Shown in pieces: positions 615-8,166 of a DNA stretch of 64,000 bases. Source of the DNA: Leptodontidium sp. MPI-SDFR-AT-0119 (taxonomy: Eukaryota; Ascomycota; Leotiomycetes; Helotiales; Leptodontidiaceae); the NCBI GenBank assembly GCA_020726505.1, contig JAHLEZ010000002.1:3906001-3970000 (forward strand), in the 5' to 3' direction. Each line of letters starts with the position of its first letter. Positions within the stretch are counted from its first letter, which is position 1. Under the pieces are notes generated by a model. That model did not search any database and was not told the origin of the DNA. It worked only from the letters and a program-made list of their open reading frames with translations. The translations under genes were made by a program, and so were the position numbers.

Positions 615-2451
615 TCACCCTCGAGGAGCGGCATTCGATGGTGTTGTACTTGAGCCTCCTTTCAGATGAGAGGTCGAGCCCTTGAACAGTGACTGCCAGA
701 TGAATGCTTCGCTGAGAAGAAGTTCAATATCTTTTTCCGTCCAGTCTCTTGTCGGCAACGCCTGCAGGAACATCATAACTTCTTGAAAGTCCATCTTCCT
801 CAATTTGTCTGACCATTTGACCAGAAACGCCACGCACACGTAGAGATGGAACTCGGAGAATCCTTGCTCTTCGGCCTTCTCAAGATATTAGCGTCTGTAT
901 TATGAGAATGCTACGATGTCAACATACCATATACGTGTCCCACATCCTGATGGTGTTCCTGACGCTGATCTCTCTCATGAGGAGGCAGTTCATCCACCTA
1001 AAACTAAATTGAATGAACTCAACGCTCTCTTGTTCCAAGTGTTTCGCAAGAGGCTCATCTATCCTAGCCGTCAAGTCATGGAGTGCCGCAACTTGTCGTT
1101 GAATGCCGGGTTGCGCAAAAATGTAGTTATCCTGGATGCCATCCAAGAGCTTGGTAATACACCAAAACGTATCAGCCTCAACAGCGTCCAGTACGGTCTT
1201 TGGGAGCTGTCCTGGGTCCATTCCACTTTCAACATCCGAATCTGTAATGTAACTTGCAAGGAATACCTGCCAGAAAGGTGTGACAAGATCATTGATGCCT
1301 TGAACGTAGCCGCTTGCAGGATGCCGAACTGCCCAAACATAGAGGATCCTCTCCAAGGATCGCTGCGTAGCTTCGTAACTGTAGAGCTCCAAGTGAGGGT
1401 TTGTTCGAGGCACGTCGATGCTAATCTGATGCCAGATTGCTTCGTCTAGACCCCTTATTTTGCCTGACTGCCCAGAACTATTTCCACCTCTCTCAAAAGC
1501 CTGTCTCACCCCGTCTAAGTACTCCTTCCTCTTGCGTTCGAGCGTTCCCACACGACGTTCGCTGCTTGTCGGGAGATAGCCGAGCAAGAGTTGCCATGTC
1601 ATTGCCCGTACTTCTTCTGGAACACCAGACCATGCCGCAGCTCTCAGTTCCGTCAAATTGATCGAGGTTGCTTGGAGAATCTTTTTAAATTTGTTGATTC
1701 GCGTTATACGGGCCGAATGTACATCCACTTCCTTGGGTGTAGCATTTGTTGGTACAGGCGGATGGTTAATGAGATGTAGAGAATTGGCTGGGTCCCTGAG
1801 AATTTCCTTGTACTGTGGTCGTAGAATCTTTCCCTCGGTCTTCTTTGCAACTGGGTAGCTTGGTGTTGGACGCTCAATGGCAATATCGGCGCTGTTAGAA
1901 AGCCTTCTGGTGCCAAATCCACCAAATCCTCCCTGCAGCCCGTGCCCAAATTGCGATAGATTCCCTCCAGTTTCAGAGCTGGCTTGTTCTGGGCCCTTCT
2001 TGCTCTTCCGTTTCATGCTGGATATGCTGGGTAGTCCAAAATCGTCCCCGTCATCATTATCATATCCATAGTCATCATATTCGTCCCCTTCTTCGTCTGC
2101 GTTCCAGTCGTTGTTCGTATTTGACAAGAAGTCTGTATAGTTCCGTCTTGGTGGGGATGTCAGACCAGACGATCCACGATGGAGAGGAGGGGTATCACTC
2201 CGGGTCTTATGTGACGAAGAAGATGGGGGCGTTCGTGGGCGCGTCGCATTTGAGGATAAAGATCTAGAGTGAGTATAAATAGCTGCTCTCCCGAGAATTC
2301 TTTGAGACCTTACAGGTTGTCAAATCTCATCATATCGGCATGCGAGTATGCGGCTCCAACGACCAGACCTGGATCCCGCGCAGATTGCTTTTTAGGAGAT
2401 GGATCGCGTCGTCCTTCTGCAGTACGAGTTCGCCAGAAAGGAGAGGAGGAT
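615..2451 (-). CDS. GYP1: Gyp1-like TBC-domain Rab GTPase-activating protein (5' end incomplete)
   Basis: TBC proteins stimulate GTP hydrolysis by Rab GTPases; yeast Gyp1 acts on Ypt1 at the Golgi. Exons read on the minus strand are 2451-2314, 2263-928 and 878-615, with introns of 50 and 49 nt. The Ser/Pro-rich N-terminus is followed by an acidic patch (EEGDEYDDYGYDNDD) and then the TBC domain. That domain carries the catalytic Arg motif IxxDVPRTNP and the Gln motif YVQGINDL, and the end reads SEAFIWQSLFKG, as in the Gyp1/TBC1D22 group. The frame is open upstream of Leu-Ser-Asn at 2127 (HRGSSGLTSPPRRNYTDF), so the coding region does not begin there. An exon at 2451-2314 joins in phase through a GTAAGG donor and TCTAG acceptor, but the initiator ATG lies in a further 5' exon that I could not place. 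The family assignment is firm; the N-terminus is not. Confidence 0.85.
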
Positions 2452-3290
2452 CTGGCATTCCAAGTCAGCGAACAGCTTGCAGTTAGCCCACCATGTACCC
2501 CCGCTCCACCTATCCCTTTGCACGTCAAGTCAAAGCAAAAGTCGCAACATACTCAGATCTTTCTATGGGAAGTATGGCGCGTCAGCCTGTGTCCAGAGGC
2601 ACAATTGGGAAGAGTCGCAAGGCATTTACTCCAGGATTCTTGGTGGGGGATTCGAACTGACCAACTTGGACCATCTCCTTCAAGACACAATCAGCCTCGT
2701 TCGTCATCTTTTGAATTTTGAGGGTGTAGACTGACCTGCTGCACCGGTTTCTTACTGCTATTTGAAGAAGAAAACATATTTGCAAGACCCGGAGACCTTT
2801 GTTGTAAGCTTCATTCCTGAAGCTTCGAGACTTCCAAATTCCTTCCTTTAATCGGCTGCGTTGGCTGGGCTCCCAATCACCTTGACCTCCCGCGAACGAG
2901 TACCACTTCCACTGCACTGCACTGGAGCCGGGAGCCGCCTCTGTTCTCGGCGCTAGTATTTTAGCGCCACTCCCATCCTCTCCCGTCCTTTCAAGCAACC
3001 TCAGCTCTTGTCCCTCCTTTCTCCATCACGACAACCACATTCACATTCACACCTCCTTCTCTTCAGCCAGAATCGGCCACGATTTATTAATTTCCATTTC
3101 TTCCGTCTATTCCACCTCTACTTGAGCCTTTTTCGGATTCTCGCTGCGAACGATTACAAGTTCCCTCCTTATTTCTACAGCCTCTCCCTCGAGGCACCCA
3201 CGTCGCAATCAACACGCCGGATCGAGACGCAACCTCGACAGTTCTCCCACTAATAATCTAGCAGACTGTTGAGGCAATCATATCGTCAGA
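2452..3290. other. Divergent promoter region
   Basis: This stretch lies between the minus-strand Rab GAP and the plus-strand RNA-binding gene. It must contain the first exon(s) of the GAP and both promoters. The 2990-3280 part is rich in CT tracts, typical of a fungal 5' UTR, and leads directly to the ATG at 3291. Confidence 0.5.
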
Positions 3291-6200
3291 ATGGCAGAAC
3301 CCGACAACTTCGAGGAGGATCTCTTCGCCGATCTGTATGTATGCCCAGATGTGCCACGACGACCCAGCTTTCCGGCAACGAGGCCTGTGCAACAAGCAGC
3401 AAACTTCATCTCCTCTACTCCCATCAATCACACAACCCACACCAGTCACTCACTTGCTACCTCAAACACTTGTCCAGGATGATGTACTAATGCCATATCT
3501 AGGTACACAGATGAAGTTGCTGCGTCGAAGCCGGCTGCTCCAGAAGTTGAACTGAAGACTGAGCTTGCCCAAGAGGAGGTGAAGGTCGAAGAATCCCATG
3601 ACCATACCGAGCAGAATGGCGAAGGTGGCGAGGAGACTTACAATGGTGGAGACCAGGACATGGATGACGAGATTGATTTCAATTTGGGTCAAAGCAATGG
3701 CAATAATTACGATGCTCCGGTCACCCATGAGGCCCATGGACCTGGAATCAAAGAAGACGGGTAAGCTATTATCGATTTTCTTTTTACTGTATATGCAAAA
3801 CGGTCCTGGTGCTTGGTCGAGGGGACAGTGTTCCACTGTCAGCACAGAGCGTATCGCGCTGTTAGGACCTATTTGCTTCAATTTACCAACATTTCGTCCT
3901 TGACACGAGGGATATGGACATTGGGCCTTCGGATTTGGAATTTGGACAAGGTGGATGGTGGAAGGACGGGATTTTTTGGGCATCACAAGTCATGAAGAAT
4001 GGCCAGATGACTTGTGAGGGACTGGGTATGAGGGGGAGGATATTTGTCTTTGGGGCGCCGGACAACTCTCAAACGTTGAAATTCTGGTGCGGGCGGGGTG
4101 GATGAAGGATGCCATAGAGCACTGAGGTGCCGCGGAAGGCCAGTGGAAACAAAACTTGGACAGCTTCAGAGGGAAACGCACAGGCGTCTTGAGAGGATTG
4201 AAAGGAAACTGATATCGACTCATGCAATCGACATCAACAGCGGCCATAGTCAAGCCTACTACATAGCCTATTGTCGAGATAATCTTCATAGAGCATCAGA
4301 GGAGGCCACAGATAGGCTAGAGCAGAAGGCAGCGCATAGCGTTCGACGCCAGTACCTAGCATCACGATAGCAAAAGACACGATTGTTCTTGGATATCTTG
4401 CAGTGTCATTCTTCATTGCATGACTACTTCTCCTGGATTCGCTGTGGCATGGGCTGGCAAGTCATTCAGGATGTGTGAGATGCTGTGGAAGCTCTGCCCA
4501 CGAAACGGACGGATGTGGTATATGTTCTCCGACATTGCCTGCCGAATCAATCATGTCGCCCAAATCATCAAACGGCCCATACTTTCTTACTACAGGACAG
4601 ACGACCCGAAAGTGTTGAAATTCCTCCCACAGCTAGCGACCTGCTCAAGCGAAGCATTTCCCCCATGTTCCAGACCATAGGATCCGAGACAGCGAAACAG
4701 CATCCCAATTTTCCGTTAACCCTGGATTTCTTTTTATAACACATGTTTTTTTTTTTACTGCTGTTGTTATTTCATTCGCTAATAAGTCATGATTATGCAG
4801 GAAGATGTTCATTGGTGGTTTGAATTGGGAGACGACCGATCGTAAGTATCCTGCCACAGCTGGTTCACTCTTTACATGTCTGACCTAGATCTTAGAATCA
4901 CTTAAGGAATACTTCTCTCAATTTGGTGAGGTTCTCGAGTGTACTGTGATGAGAGATGGCGCTTCAGGTCGTTCAAGAGGCTTTGGCTTTTTGACCTTCA
5001 AAGATGCCCGTACTGTTAACATTGTGATGGTGAAGGAACACTACCTCGATGGCAAGATCGTAAGACCCGATTTCCAAACTCCTTCAAATTCTTTACGTCA
5101 CTACCCTTCCAAAAACCTTTCCCCTAGCAGAAACAAAAGCTCACGCGCCCATTGCAAGATCGATCCAAAGAGGGCAATTCCCCGAGACGAGCAGGAACGT
5201 ACCAGCAAGATCTTTGTTGGCGGTGTCAGCCAGGAGGCCACTGAACAAGACTTCAAAGAGTACTTCATGCAGTTCGGTCGAGTCGTTGACGCCACCCTCA
5301 TGATGGATAAGGACACCGGAAGACCACGAGGTTTCGGATTTGTCACATTCGATAGCGAAGCCGCAGTTGAGGCCTGCCTGGACTCACCACTCGAGATTCT
5401 CGGCAAGCCGATTGAGGTCAAGAAGGCTCAACCACGCGGCAACATGAGAGAGGAAGAAGAGCGAGGTGGTCGAGGAGGACGATTCCGTAAAGGAGGCAAC
5501 GATGAGAACCAAAACGCCAACCAAGTTCAGCAAGGCGGTGGTAATCAAATGGCACCAGGTGGTATGACCCCCCAAGTTATGGCTCAGTACTGGCAGCGCA
5601 TGCAACAATACTTTGCCATGATGCAACAACAGATGGCTATGGGAGGTGGACGAGGTATGCCTATGGCTGGTGGCATGAATCCGGCCATGATGATGCAAAT
5701 GCAACAGATGCAAGCCATGCAACAACAAATGCAGCAGGGCAACCGTAGTCAAAGCCCTCAAAGCCCTGGTGCTGGAATGGCTGGTATGCAAGGCATGAAC
5801 CCAGCTATGATGCAGCAGATGCAGCAGATGCAACAAATGCAAATGCAAGGAATGGGTGGTGCTGGAATGGGTGGAGGAGCGGGCATGGGTGGTGGTGCTG
5901 GTATGGGCAACAACTATGCTGCTGGTGGAGGAAGTAACCCAGGTGGACGAATCGGTACGCCAGGATACAATGCCTACGAACAGCAAATATTCGAGCAGCA
6001 GAAGTATGAGCAACAACAAATGCGTCGAGCTGGTGGACGTGAGCAAGGTCAATACGGCCAAGGCGGAGGTTATGGTCAAGGCATGGGCGGGGGGCCTACA
6101 TCATGGGAGGGAATGTATGATGATGTTCCTCAACCAAACGTTCCTAGCGGAGGCGGAGGTCGTGGAGGATTCCAAGGCAATCGTGGTGGAAGTAATAGGG

Positions 6201-6506: not shown

Positions 6507-7500
6507 TTATAACTTCGTGAATCCCTCCTTTGGGGGCTGTAACCAATTCCTCTCATCGTAAATAGCCCCCTCTCCCTCAATAACGTGAAATGTATATATG
6601 ATCCTCCCCTTCTTACTAGTATTCTTCTCACTCTTATGCAACAGATTCCCATGAATCAGCACCAAAGATCCGGCTTTGACCTCCCCAAGCACATACTCCC
6701 CTCCCTTGTCCTCCGCCCCATACTCCCCACCAACCGGGAATCTCAACCCCTCATTATCAATAAACTCCGTCCCAGATCCATCCTTCTTCCTCACAAACCT
6801 CTGTCCCACCTCGGCGTTCTTATGGCTTCCCGGCAAGAAACTCAGACACCCGTTCTCAACCGTCGCGTCCTCCAACGCGTACCAGAATCCCACGGCACTC
6901 GGCGGATTGGTGTAGAGGAATGTAGAATCCTGATGTGGAGGAACAGCGCCGCCTATCTCGGGTTGCTTGCAGATAATCATACTTTGGAGGCATTGCGGGG
7001 TGTGGAAACCAATGGATTTGGCGATGAGTGATGGAGAGTGTGTGGATGATGGAGAGAGCAGGGATGCGAAGGGTGGAGAGAGGGCGTGGAGGTAATGCCC
7101 TATTTTGTTTATGGCGAGGGCTTTCGGTTTGGTGAGGTTGCCGGCTGCGTCGAATGCATCTAGAGCTGTTAGTGGGGGTTTACGGTACTTGGGGAATTGG
7201 GGTTGGGAAGTCTATCTTACCTTCTTCGAAGAAGAAACGGATCTTGTCGCCGCTGCTGAGGAAATAGTCGTCGCCTACGTGATCGCTCTTTTCTCCTGTT
7301 GAGAACTTTGTCATGGGGTGGTCGGATAGAGAGAGATTGTCTAGAAGCGAGTGGGTTTCTGTGAGGAGCTCGGAGACTTTGGAGGGGGAGAGGGCGTTGG
7401 GGATGATGAGGTAGCCATCTCGTTCGAATGTTGCTAGTTGTCCTTTTGTGAGGCCTTGGGCTGCTGAAGGGGGTTCTGGGGAAGTGCGTGAGGGTGCCAT
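6507..7500 (-). CDS. PhyH-family Fe(II)/2-oxoglutarate dioxygenase
   Basis: This belongs to the phytanoyl-CoA dioxygenase superfamily, which hydroxylates a substrate with O2 and 2-oxoglutarate. The two exons are 7500-7221 and 7159-6507 (310 aa), joined across a 61-nt intron; the phase fits (FFEE-G|D-AFDAAGNL). The start is the ATG at 7500 (MAPSRTSPEPP), since the open frame further upstream has no ATG. Visible features are the N-terminal helix FERDGYLIIPNAL, the metal-binding HxD motif in PPHQDSTFLY, the distal His in VLIHGNLLHKS and the 2-oxoglutarate-binding Arg in GRIIYTFHV. All catalytic residues are present and the length is normal. The substrate cannot be deduced: fungal members range from peroxisomal lipid to secondary-metabolite enzymes, and no metabolic cluster surrounds this one. 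Confidence 0.85.
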
Positions 7501-7560: not shown

Positions 7561-7965
7561 ACTTGCCCCTCGCCGATAAGAATGGGCTGCTTGGGGAGTC
7601 AGAAATCAGGGAGTAGCATTTGTTCTTGTATTCTAAATCATATGTTCATCATAGGTAATTATTTAATGGTATGTCCCAAGCATGTGACAATTCATTTTCA
7701 ACGAGCATGGTTGACTGTGAATATGGCTATTTACCTGAACAAGCAGATGCTGGCAGTTGTTAGCCTAACTCCAGAACAAAAGATTGCACTGCACAGCAAA
7801 GCAGACGAGAAAGATAAATAAATATATTATTAGCTCTTAATTTATCGTCTGCCAAGGTATTTCAGGAGTTTAAAAAGAAAGAATCTCTCCTTAACTCCTA
7901 GCACACACATATTTACTTTGAATAATTTAGAATAGCAAAAGTTTATTTTCAAGGTCCACGTCATT
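7561..7965. other. AT-rich spacer downstream of the tRNA
   Basis: I see no protein gene. Reading the minus strand away from the tRNA, the first T-runs are TTTT at 7940-7937 and TTTTT at 7876-7872, the only nearby candidates for Pol III termination. Confidence 0.4.
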
Positions 7966-7986
7966 TGCTGCCAGAGGGGTTCGAAC

Positions 7987-8038
7987 CTTTCACAACGTCA
8001 GTGACTATTCAGTGTTTAGCAGAAGTTATTTAGCTCAC
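7987..8038 (-). other. GT-AG intron inside the tRNA T-stem (between positions 52 and 53)
   Basis: This is a 52-nt insertion starting GTGAGC and ending GAAAG, with branch-like CACTGAC about 10 nt before the acceptor. Removing it joins GAGG to G and rebuilds the perfect T-stem. Its last G also supplies the first G of the intact B box GGTTCGAACC at the DNA level. Length and signals match the spliceosomal introns of nearby protein genes; removal by the spliceosome is an inference. Confidence 0.8.
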
Positions 8039-8061
8039 CCTCGCTCATTTCTGAAATGGTG

Positions 8062-8078
8062 ATTTATTGATGTGTCAA
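8062..8078 (-). other. Canonical tRNA intron after position 37
   Basis: This is a 17-nt insertion between G37 and C38 of the anticodon loop, the standard place for nuclear tRNA introns removed by the tRNA splicing endonuclease and ligase. It holds a small TTGA-CACA-TCAA hairpin. The exact bounds are inferred from the 7-nt loop requirement. Confidence 0.7.
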
Positions 8079-8097
8079 CTTAAAACCATCGCCTTAG

Positions 8098-8147
8098 CTA
8101 TGAGAAGTTAGTGCCAATGCGCAACAACGTTGGGTGGGAGCACAAAC
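8098..8147 (-). other. GT-AG intron inside the tRNA D-loop
   Basis: This is a 50-nt insertion between GAGTGGT and CTAAGGC, starting GTTTGT and ending CATAG, with a textbook fungal branch site CACTAAC about 10 nt before the acceptor. Its removal gives GGCCGAGTGGTCTAAGGC, the usual D-arm of class II tRNAs. The A box upstream of the insertion is untouched. Confidence 0.8.
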
Positions 8148-8166
8148 ACCACTCGGCCATAGCAGC

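Follow-up and report, generated by a model that had tools for sequence, protein, structure and literature searches.

Spliceosomal introns are known in fungal U6 snRNA genes, i.e., those of Schizosaccharomyces pombe and others, and in ascomycete ribosomal DNA. U6 is an RNA polymerase III transcript. In textbook tRNA splicing the intron is handled by a protein endonuclease and a ligase. Among small structured RNAs, frequent interruption by an intron was so far known for U3 and U6 only, according to a 2017 paper (PMC5832005). The fungal U3 introns treated in that paper have GTRWGT donors and RCTRAC branches, and all but one end in YAG. Introns in the D-arm and T-arm, several of them in one tRNA gene, have been described for the red alga Cyanidioschyzon merolae and the nucleomorph of the cryptophyte Guillardia theta (PMC4090602, section 5); the sequence-only reading of the locus presented here, which placed nuclear tRNA introns after position 37, was too narrow in this respect.

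We studied a tRNA-Leu(UAA) gene and nine further tRNA genes of one fungal genome that contain segments with GT-AG ends. The segments would be introns of a known kind, occupying ten sites within a single genome, in a class of host RNA that is both new for them and essential. The segments resemble the fungal U6 introns, being short, with GT-AG ends and a CTRAC branch, in a small structured RNA of the polymerase III type, and the U6 gene of this same genome has two of them (50 and 49 nt). They differ from the U6 introns in that the host is a tRNA, in that they lie at many sites in six isoacceptors, with no more than two in any gene, and in that a canonical tRNA intron is present on the same transcript. 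With ascomycete rDNA they have in common that mRNA-type introns lie in a non-coding RNA, although there the host is a large rRNA precursor and not a tRNA. The likeness to fungal U3 (PMC5832005) extends to a structured host RNA, to GT-AG ends with a GTRWGT donor and an RCTRAC branch, and to the coexistence of paralogues with and without introns; the U3 introns, however, cluster in one 5' stem-loop, whereas here ten sites, spread along the entire tRNA and in several tRNA families, are occupied. The tRNA introns of the G. theta nucleomorph are 3-24 nt long and those of C. merolae are associated with a bulge-helix-bulge and the endonuclease, and section 5 of PMC4090602 describes GT-AG ends or branch signals for neither. 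Searches of the open-licence literature, with passages of PMC11782384 and PMC8450103 among it, turned up no description of a GT-AG intron in a nuclear tRNA gene.

The tRNA-Leu(UAA) gene of the window

The window, i.e., the whole stretch of 64,000 nt that was analyzed, comprises bases 3906001-3970000 of a 5.6-Mb contig in an assembly of 77 Mb and 69 contigs. A protein encoded nearby (WKF domain, 422 aa) was 100% identical over its full length to ACEPPN_008772 of Leptodophora sp. 'Broadleaf-Isolate-01', a member of a helotialean ascomycete genus, and the window is therefore nuclear sequence of a filamentous fungus. The features of the gene and the introns used for comparison are given in Table 1.

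Table 1 Features of the tRNA-Leu(UAA) gene and comparison introns (window positions unless a locus is named)
Feature	Position	Strand	Description	Basis
tRNA-Leu(UAA) gene	7966..8166	minus	201 nt, from mature position 1 to discriminator base A73	sequence, cloverleaf parse
Exon 1	8148..8166	minus	acceptor 5' strand, T8, D-stem 5' strand, D-loop to GGT	
A box	8159-8148	minus	TGGCCGAGTGGT, intact, inside exon 1	
Putative GT-AG intron 1	8098..8147	minus	50 nt, D-loop (after mature nt 19), GTTTGT...CACTAAC...TAG	
Middle exon	8039..8097	minus	remaining D-arm, anticodon arm, variable arm, T-stem bases 1-4; houses the canonical intron	
Anticodon	8080..8082	minus	TAA	our cloverleaf parse; ARAGORN register one base off
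Canonical anticodon-loop intron	8062..8078	minus	17 nt, after anticodon position 37, without GT-AG ends	
Putative GT-AG intron 2	7987..8038	minus	52 nt, T-stem (after mature nt 61, i.e., 52/53), GTGAGC...CACTGAC...AAAG	
Exon 3	7966..7986	minus	final T-stem base, T-loop, T-stem 3' strand, acceptor 3' strand, A73	
B box core	within 7966..7986	minus	GTTCGAACC, in exon 3	
Candidate Pol III terminator	7937..7940	minus	T4 run, starting 26 nt past the gene	
PhyH comparison intron	7160..7220	minus	61 nt, GTAAGA...CACTAAC...TAG, in the neighbouring phytanoyl-CoA dioxygenase gene	
U6 snRNA gene (L124)	L124:1477-1526, 1561-1609		two GT-AG introns, 50 and 49 nt; match G000:C13:138532-138689	

Read along the minus strand from 8166 to 7966, the gene consists of GCTGCTATGGCCGAGTGGT [50 nt] CTAAGGCGATGGTTTTAAG [17 nt] CACCATTTCAGAAATGAGCGAGG [52 nt] GTTCGAACCCCTCTGGCAGCA. 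The joined exons form a class II tRNA of 82 nt with an acceptor stem of 7 bp, a D-arm containing GG, an anticodon stem of 5 bp (ATGGT/ACCAT) closing the loop TTTAAGC, a variable region of 13 nt, the T-stem GAGGG/CCCTC and the T-loop TTCGAAC. Our parse placed G26, U33 and G37 around the ATGGT/ACCAT stem and read the anticodon as TAA, i.e., a complete class II cloverleaf with the conserved bases, and gave a score of 33.5, compared with 28-35 for 40 of the 41 ordinary tRNA matches of the genome; for the unspliced gene no cloverleaf parse was possible. The claim of the sequence-only reading, that a class II tRNA emerges solely after both segments and the anticodon-loop intron are taken out, was thus confirmed, and its coordinates, lengths and motifs for the two GT-AG segments were exact to the base. 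A branch-like A lies 10 nt from the end of intron 1 and 11 nt from the end of intron 2.

ARAGORN found no tRNA in the window and none in the unspliced Leu gene; it called one once both GT-AG segments had been removed, under the label 'tRNA-Stop(tta)', because it shifted the anticodon stem by one base. With intron 2 alone retained it reported a spurious tRNA-Ser, and with intron 1 alone retained, nothing. No Rfam family reached its gathering score within the window. A group I or group II intron was rejected, given the absence of an Rfam match in the window and segments of 50 and 52 nt as against a far longer ribozyme core. A DNA search with the spliced 82-nt sequence returned no match, its own gene included. 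We consider it very likely that the gene contains, next to the 17-nt anticodon-loop intron, two GT-AG introns removed by the spliceosome.

An ordinary tRNA-Leu(UAA) elsewhere in the genome was an observation named beforehand as counting against this reading; within their limits, searches with an intact CGAGYGGT-type D-arm and with the Leu 3' exon revealed none. The single match to the D-arm pattern (G000:C10:693117) was not a tRNA, and it was discarded as a second Leu-UAA gene after a splice-aware scan of the surrounding sequence gave no tRNA. The second match to the 3' exon (3 mismatches) had no TTCRA and no tRNA around it. A divergent uninterrupted copy could still exist elsewhere in the genome. 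The UUA codon requires a UAA anticodon; seven long open frames of the window, with 3770 codons together, contain TTA 19 times.

Interrupted tRNA genes across the genome

GT-AG introns were found in ten tRNA genes of the genome, corresponding to six isoacceptors and five amino acids, with a total of 14 introns of 49-64 nt: two in Leu-UAA, one in each of two Arg-UCG genes, one and two in the two Ser-GCU genes, one in each of three Tyr-GUA genes, and two each in Pro-AGG and Pro-CGG. They occupy 10 distinct sites, after mature nt 5, 7, 19, 26, 42, 45, 47, 54, 58 and 61, in the acceptor stem, the 7/8 junction, the D-loop, the anticodon stem, the variable region and the T-stem; none of the sites is the canonical tRNA intron position 37/38. 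All ten genes also have a canonical anticodon-loop intron (12-27 nt), and of these canonical introns one starts with GT, none ends with AG and none has both ends.

The genes came from several searches. An Rfam tRNA search of the genome, in which 63 of 2877 candidates were scored, yielded 46 places; two of these, the Arg-UCG pair, have GT-AG introns (a 59-nt GTAAGT...AAAAG segment in the variable loop), and for the remainder, within what was tested, no removal of this kind was needed, so that most of the matches are ordinary. Arg-UCG genes of another type (L018, L019 and L024) are uninterrupted. Patterns combining a branch motif and an AG directly before the T-loop led to the additional Tyr, Ser and Pro genes. 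A Tyr exon search (30 bases, up to 3 mismatches) gave three Tyr-GUA genes, all three interrupted at T-stem 52/53, and a Ser-GCU exon search gave two genes, both interrupted; both exon patterns were able to find uninterrupted copies too. 'Every gene found' is not every gene here, as the inventory is incomplete.

Of the three branch/AG pattern searches, one, with all 40 matches examined, gave five interrupted tRNA genes, another (41 of 41 examined) gave the window's own gene only, and the third gave at least one interrupted gene among the 30 examined of 49 matches. Without the branch/AG demand, at least seven tRNA genes appeared among 31 of 34 matches, four with GT-AG introns and three with the canonical intron only. 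Reversed control patterns had more matches than the three branch/AG patterns, so pattern matches by themselves are meaningless and identification relied on structure. The scan covered tRNA genes with certain kinds of A box. Splice variants had to contain GTNNG and [CT]T[AG]AC, so introns with other signals, such as the CTAAT of the Arg-UCG gene on C23, may be missed. The Leu gene, the Arg pair, the Tyr gene on C4 and the Ser gene on C4 were found without demanding CTAAC or CTGAC plus AG.

A 96-nt intron at the canonical place was observed in L049 (G000:C2:157628-157795, minus strand), with C for U at position 33; its anticodon would read CCA. A GT-AG intron was considered for this gene and set aside, since the canonical-place intron explains the sequence equally well, the odd C33 notwithstanding.

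Splice signals, boundaries and paralogues

All 14 introns have the form GTNNG...AG, starting with GT and finishing with AG. The donors are GTAAGT in eight, GTGAGC in two, and GTAAGC, GTGAGT, GTATGA and GTTTGT in one each, i.e., extended GTRWGT-like sequences complementary to U1, with G at +5 in 14/14, A or G at +3 in 13/14 (the exception is GTTTGT, Leu intron 1) and T at +6 in 10/14. A branch-like A lies 9-13 nt from the end of every intron, in CTAAC (11), CTGAC (1), CTAAT (1) or TTAAC (1), counts that are biased by the patterns demanding CTAAC or CTGAC plus AG with which several of the genes were found. With the same partial bias, a CTRAY motif was found within 6-36 nt of the acceptor, a range taken from PMC5832005. 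The acceptors are YAG in ten introns and AAG in four (Leu intron 2, both Arg introns and Pro-AGG intron 1), and apart from these four the signals agree with those given for fungal U3 introns in that paper.

Introns of the same kind were present in other genes of the genome. The sequence-only reading had likened the two Leu segments in size and signals to introns of neighbouring protein genes; this holds for the PhyH intron (61 nt), in the sole gene firmly checked. Once its exons are joined, the PhyH protein covers 212 of 213 positions of PF05721. Looking for protein-gene introns by frame continuity was too noisy, and the PhyH intron alone was therefore used. In the U6 gene L124, one intron follows ACATTTGGT and the other ATTAGCATGGC. 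A second U6-like sequence 21 kb away (L123, G000:C13:117239-117337, minus strand) is without both introns; its 5' half differs from L124, and it is perhaps a processed pseudogene. As regards the signals of the tRNA splicing endonuclease, none of the 13 testable junctions could form the four central pairs of a bulge-helix-bulge, the best being three of four at two junctions, in one register. Because the signals are U3-like, the U6 and PhyH introns are alike and no bulge-helix-bulge is present, we infer that the spliceosome removes the 14 introns.

The mature product fixes the boundary of 7 of the 14 introns; in the rest, one GT-AG boundary occurs among 2-4 that give the same product. To judge alternative deletions we used our own, stricter cloverleaf score in place of ARAGORN, which was too lenient, since 3 to 1816 deletions per intron resulted in a full-length call. 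The reference was 41 ordinary tRNAs, i.e., the 46 Rfam matches minus the two Arg genes, L046, L048 and L054; the one that fell outside the range of the other 40, L049, failed solely through an intron above the limit of that run. The spliced forms of the ten genes scored 31.0-34.0 (28-35 for 40 of the 41 ordinary tRNAs), and the unspliced forms were unparsable in six genes and reached 20.5-25.5 in four, for which a long intron and variable region had to be forced.

Every deletion of 38-75 nt was then scored (2831-3629 per intron), the other intron of the gene having been removed beforehand. The GT-AG product was best or tied best in 13/14 introns and the single best in 6/14 (one Ser, three Tyr and one in each Pro gene), and the single-best introns of Ser C4, Tyr C4 and both Pro genes are not the stretch matched by a pattern. 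At Pro-CGG intron 2, 21 products scored half a point above the GT-AG product. For the Leu introns (3287 and 3363 deletions) no product exceeded that of GT-AG and no other GT-AG deletion equalled it; the top score was common to 21 products for intron 1 and 2 for intron 2. Ties were as many as 158 products at sites in the variable loop and the D-loop, where the sequence of the loop is free, and a second or third GT-AG product tied in Arg C23, Ser C12 and Pro-CGG intron 2. In introns with higher-scoring or tied products the boundaries therefore rest on the splice signals and the paralogues.

As a null, random pieces of window DNA, matched in length to the introns, were put into 31 ordinary tRNAs, 220 insertions in all; the best product was reached via GT-AG in 28/220, compared with 13/14 for the real introns, a comparison that favours the real set since part of it was found by the CTAAC/CTGAC plus AG patterns. 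Among single-best cases, a GT-AG deletion was best in 0/95 null insertions versus 6/6 real introns. The rest of the window (904 tile-strands, 838 GT-AG splice variants) gave no tRNA. Removal of GT-AG segments from ordinary tRNAs was a weak control, effective for 7 of 41 because the others leave fewer than 70 nt; a gain of at least 2 points was seen in none of the six ordinary tRNAs besides L049. Chance structure was ruled out by the tile scan of the window, the deletion scans and the random-insertion null.

Comparisons between paralogues were possible for Ser, Tyr and Pro. The Ser-GCU genes on C4 and C12, different contigs, have introns at three different sites and, after GT-AG removal, give identical tRNAs (81/81), with canonical introns matching at 13 of 20 aligned positions; each gene is thus the empty site of the other. 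The Ser C4 introns cannot be slid against the other Ser gene and are exactly GT...AG. The Tyr-GUA genes on C35 and C45 encode identical tRNAs of 75 nt and their introns align at 40/58. Across the three Tyr genes the tRNAs are identical or differ by 4 of 75 bases, and the introns, of 64 nt in C4 and 54 or 58 nt in the other two, align at 40/58 to 55/65. The four differences of Tyr C4 make up two compensatory pairs in the anticodon stem (TCGGA/TCCGA versus TCCGG/CCGGA), and the comparison fits with selection having kept the structure of the spliced tRNA as the letters of the intron changed. Pro-AGG (L132) and Pro-CGG (L139), whose tRNAs are 54/72 identical, have a common variable-loop site (after mature nt 45), with introns that align at 33/55; a shared site at this level of tRNA identity suggests that the Pro intron is old.

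Repeated insertion of one mobile element was rejected, as the intron interiors aligned no better than shuffles, same-site paralogues excepted; the best pair of non-paralogous introns had a local alignment score of 9, against a shuffle maximum of 11. The same applies to the proposal that an intron-like element had inserted twice in the Leu gene, which was not sustained since its two introns show no similarity beyond that of shuffles. No AG|G context common to the insertion sites was found.

Transcription, alternative explanations and proposed pathway

The A and B boxes are kept in the DNA of the interrupted genes. A run of four or more T within 60 nt downstream was present in 9/10 of them (for the tenth, 19 nt were read) and in 42/43 ordinary tRNA genes. 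A perfect AAATAAG at -35 to -60 occurred in 5/10 interrupted and 18/43 ordinary genes, and with up to one mismatch in 27/43 of the latter; the element is poor at the Leu gene. From these signals we infer that RNA polymerase III probably transcribes the interrupted genes. In Ser-GCU C4 (L095) and Pro-CGG (L139), introns at 7/8 and 5/6, respectively, shift the A box to about 50 nt downstream of the mature 5' end, an unusual layout for a polymerase III promoter.

That the spliceosome processes this tRNA, as the sequence-only reading supposed, gained support from the nine further genes, from paralogues that serve as empty sites, from two isoacceptors in which all genes found are interrupted and from the failure of the bulge-helix-bulge test. 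It has to be weighed against removal of the segments by the tRNA splicing endonuclease, with GT-AG ends that are incidental. Non-canonical introns in the D- and T-arms of eukaryotic tRNAs are documented (PMC4090602, section 5), and all ten genes here do contain canonical anticodon-loop introns; but it is in these that GT starts are 1/10 and AG ends 0/10, whereas each of the 14 segments has the form GTNNG...AG together with a CTAAC-type motif whose distance is fixed, and a 4-pair central helix was formed at 0 of 13 testable junctions (3/4 at best, at two, in one register). We regard the endonuclease as a most improbable agent for these segments. Equally improbable, in our view, is that insertions have turned the interrupted genes into pseudogenes, the tRNAs being supplied by uninterrupted copies elsewhere. 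The three Tyr-GUA and two Ser-GCU genes found are all interrupted, and were found by patterns that would catch intact copies; the mature Ser sequences are identical, the Tyr changes are compensatory and every site is in GT-AG phase. These points stand against the usual practice, according to PMC4090602, of calling D/T-arm insertions in single copies among synonymous genes pseudogenes, against the uninterrupted Arg-UCG genes of another type (L018, L019 and L024) and against the incompleteness of the tRNA inventory (63 of 2877 candidates scored).

Splicing by the spliceosome might also take place on transcripts of RNA polymerase II, including its read-through, rather than of polymerase III. The A boxes lying about 50 nt further than usual from the 5' portions of Ser C4 and Pro-CGG and the weak upstream element of the Leu gene would fit with this alternative, which seems unlikely to us given that A and B boxes are kept, T runs follow 9/10 genes, AAATAAG is perfect at -35 to -60 in 5/10, like 18/43 ordinary genes, and U6, a polymerase III RNA, has introns of the same kind in this genome.

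Under the reading in which polymerase III transcripts are spliced by the spliceosome, the Leu gene would be transcribed from its internal A and B boxes, set apart but intact, to the T run. U1 would likely act on the strong donors (GTAAGT in 8/14) and U2 on the CTAAC-type branch, and, as with U6, the nucleus would be the place where the GT-AG introns are spliced from the tRNA precursor. The tRNA endonuclease would then excise the anticodon-loop intron from the folded tRNA; the spliceosome step is placed before it because the endonuclease is thought to measure from the tRNA body, which is incomplete until the GT-AG introns are gone. A ruler mechanism by which this enzyme recognises the folded tRNA is described in section 5 of PMC4090602. 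A single transcript would thus pass through two splicing machines, one after the other.

Tyr codons and the AGC/AGU codons need particular mention: the former are read by GUA alone and the latter by GCU. To read Tyr, Ser-AGY and probably Leu-UUA codons, the cell would depend on the spliceosome for the tRNA and not for the mRNA alone. We think it likely that the spliceosome is an essential tRNA-processing machine in this Helotiales lineage, with Tyr-GUA, Ser-GCU and Leu-UAA tRNAs made solely via mRNA-type splicing followed by the endonuclease, with the translation of entire codon families tied directly to spliceosome activity, and with the ten sites most likely representing ten separate entries. 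If so, an RNA made by polymerase III, which has to fold and to match the ribosome with precision, relies on the accuracy of the spliceosome, and two splicing systems work on one molecule. The interrupted tRNAs would offer natural tests of a possible requirement of the spliceosome for a cap or a Pol II transcript, and of the way in which introns enter new genes, since there are ten sites and the paralogues provide empty ones. They would also offer a test of how splicing could regulate the supply of tRNA.

Fungal genomes that seem to be without tRNA-Tyr or other isoacceptors should be rescanned allowing for GT-AG introns, because ARAGORN, set to anticodon introns of up to 70 nt, reported nothing for 8/10 of the unspliced interrupted genes and misnamed the other 2/10. 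To the spliced Arg gene on C23 it assigned no name. The interrupted Arg-UCG genes L047 and L051 are named by ARAGORN tRNA-Glu and tRNA-Pro in one run and tRNA-SeC and tRNA-Leu in another, with an anticodon intron of 65-77 nt. Misnamed tRNAs with long introns in fungal annotations may likewise hide GT-AG introns.
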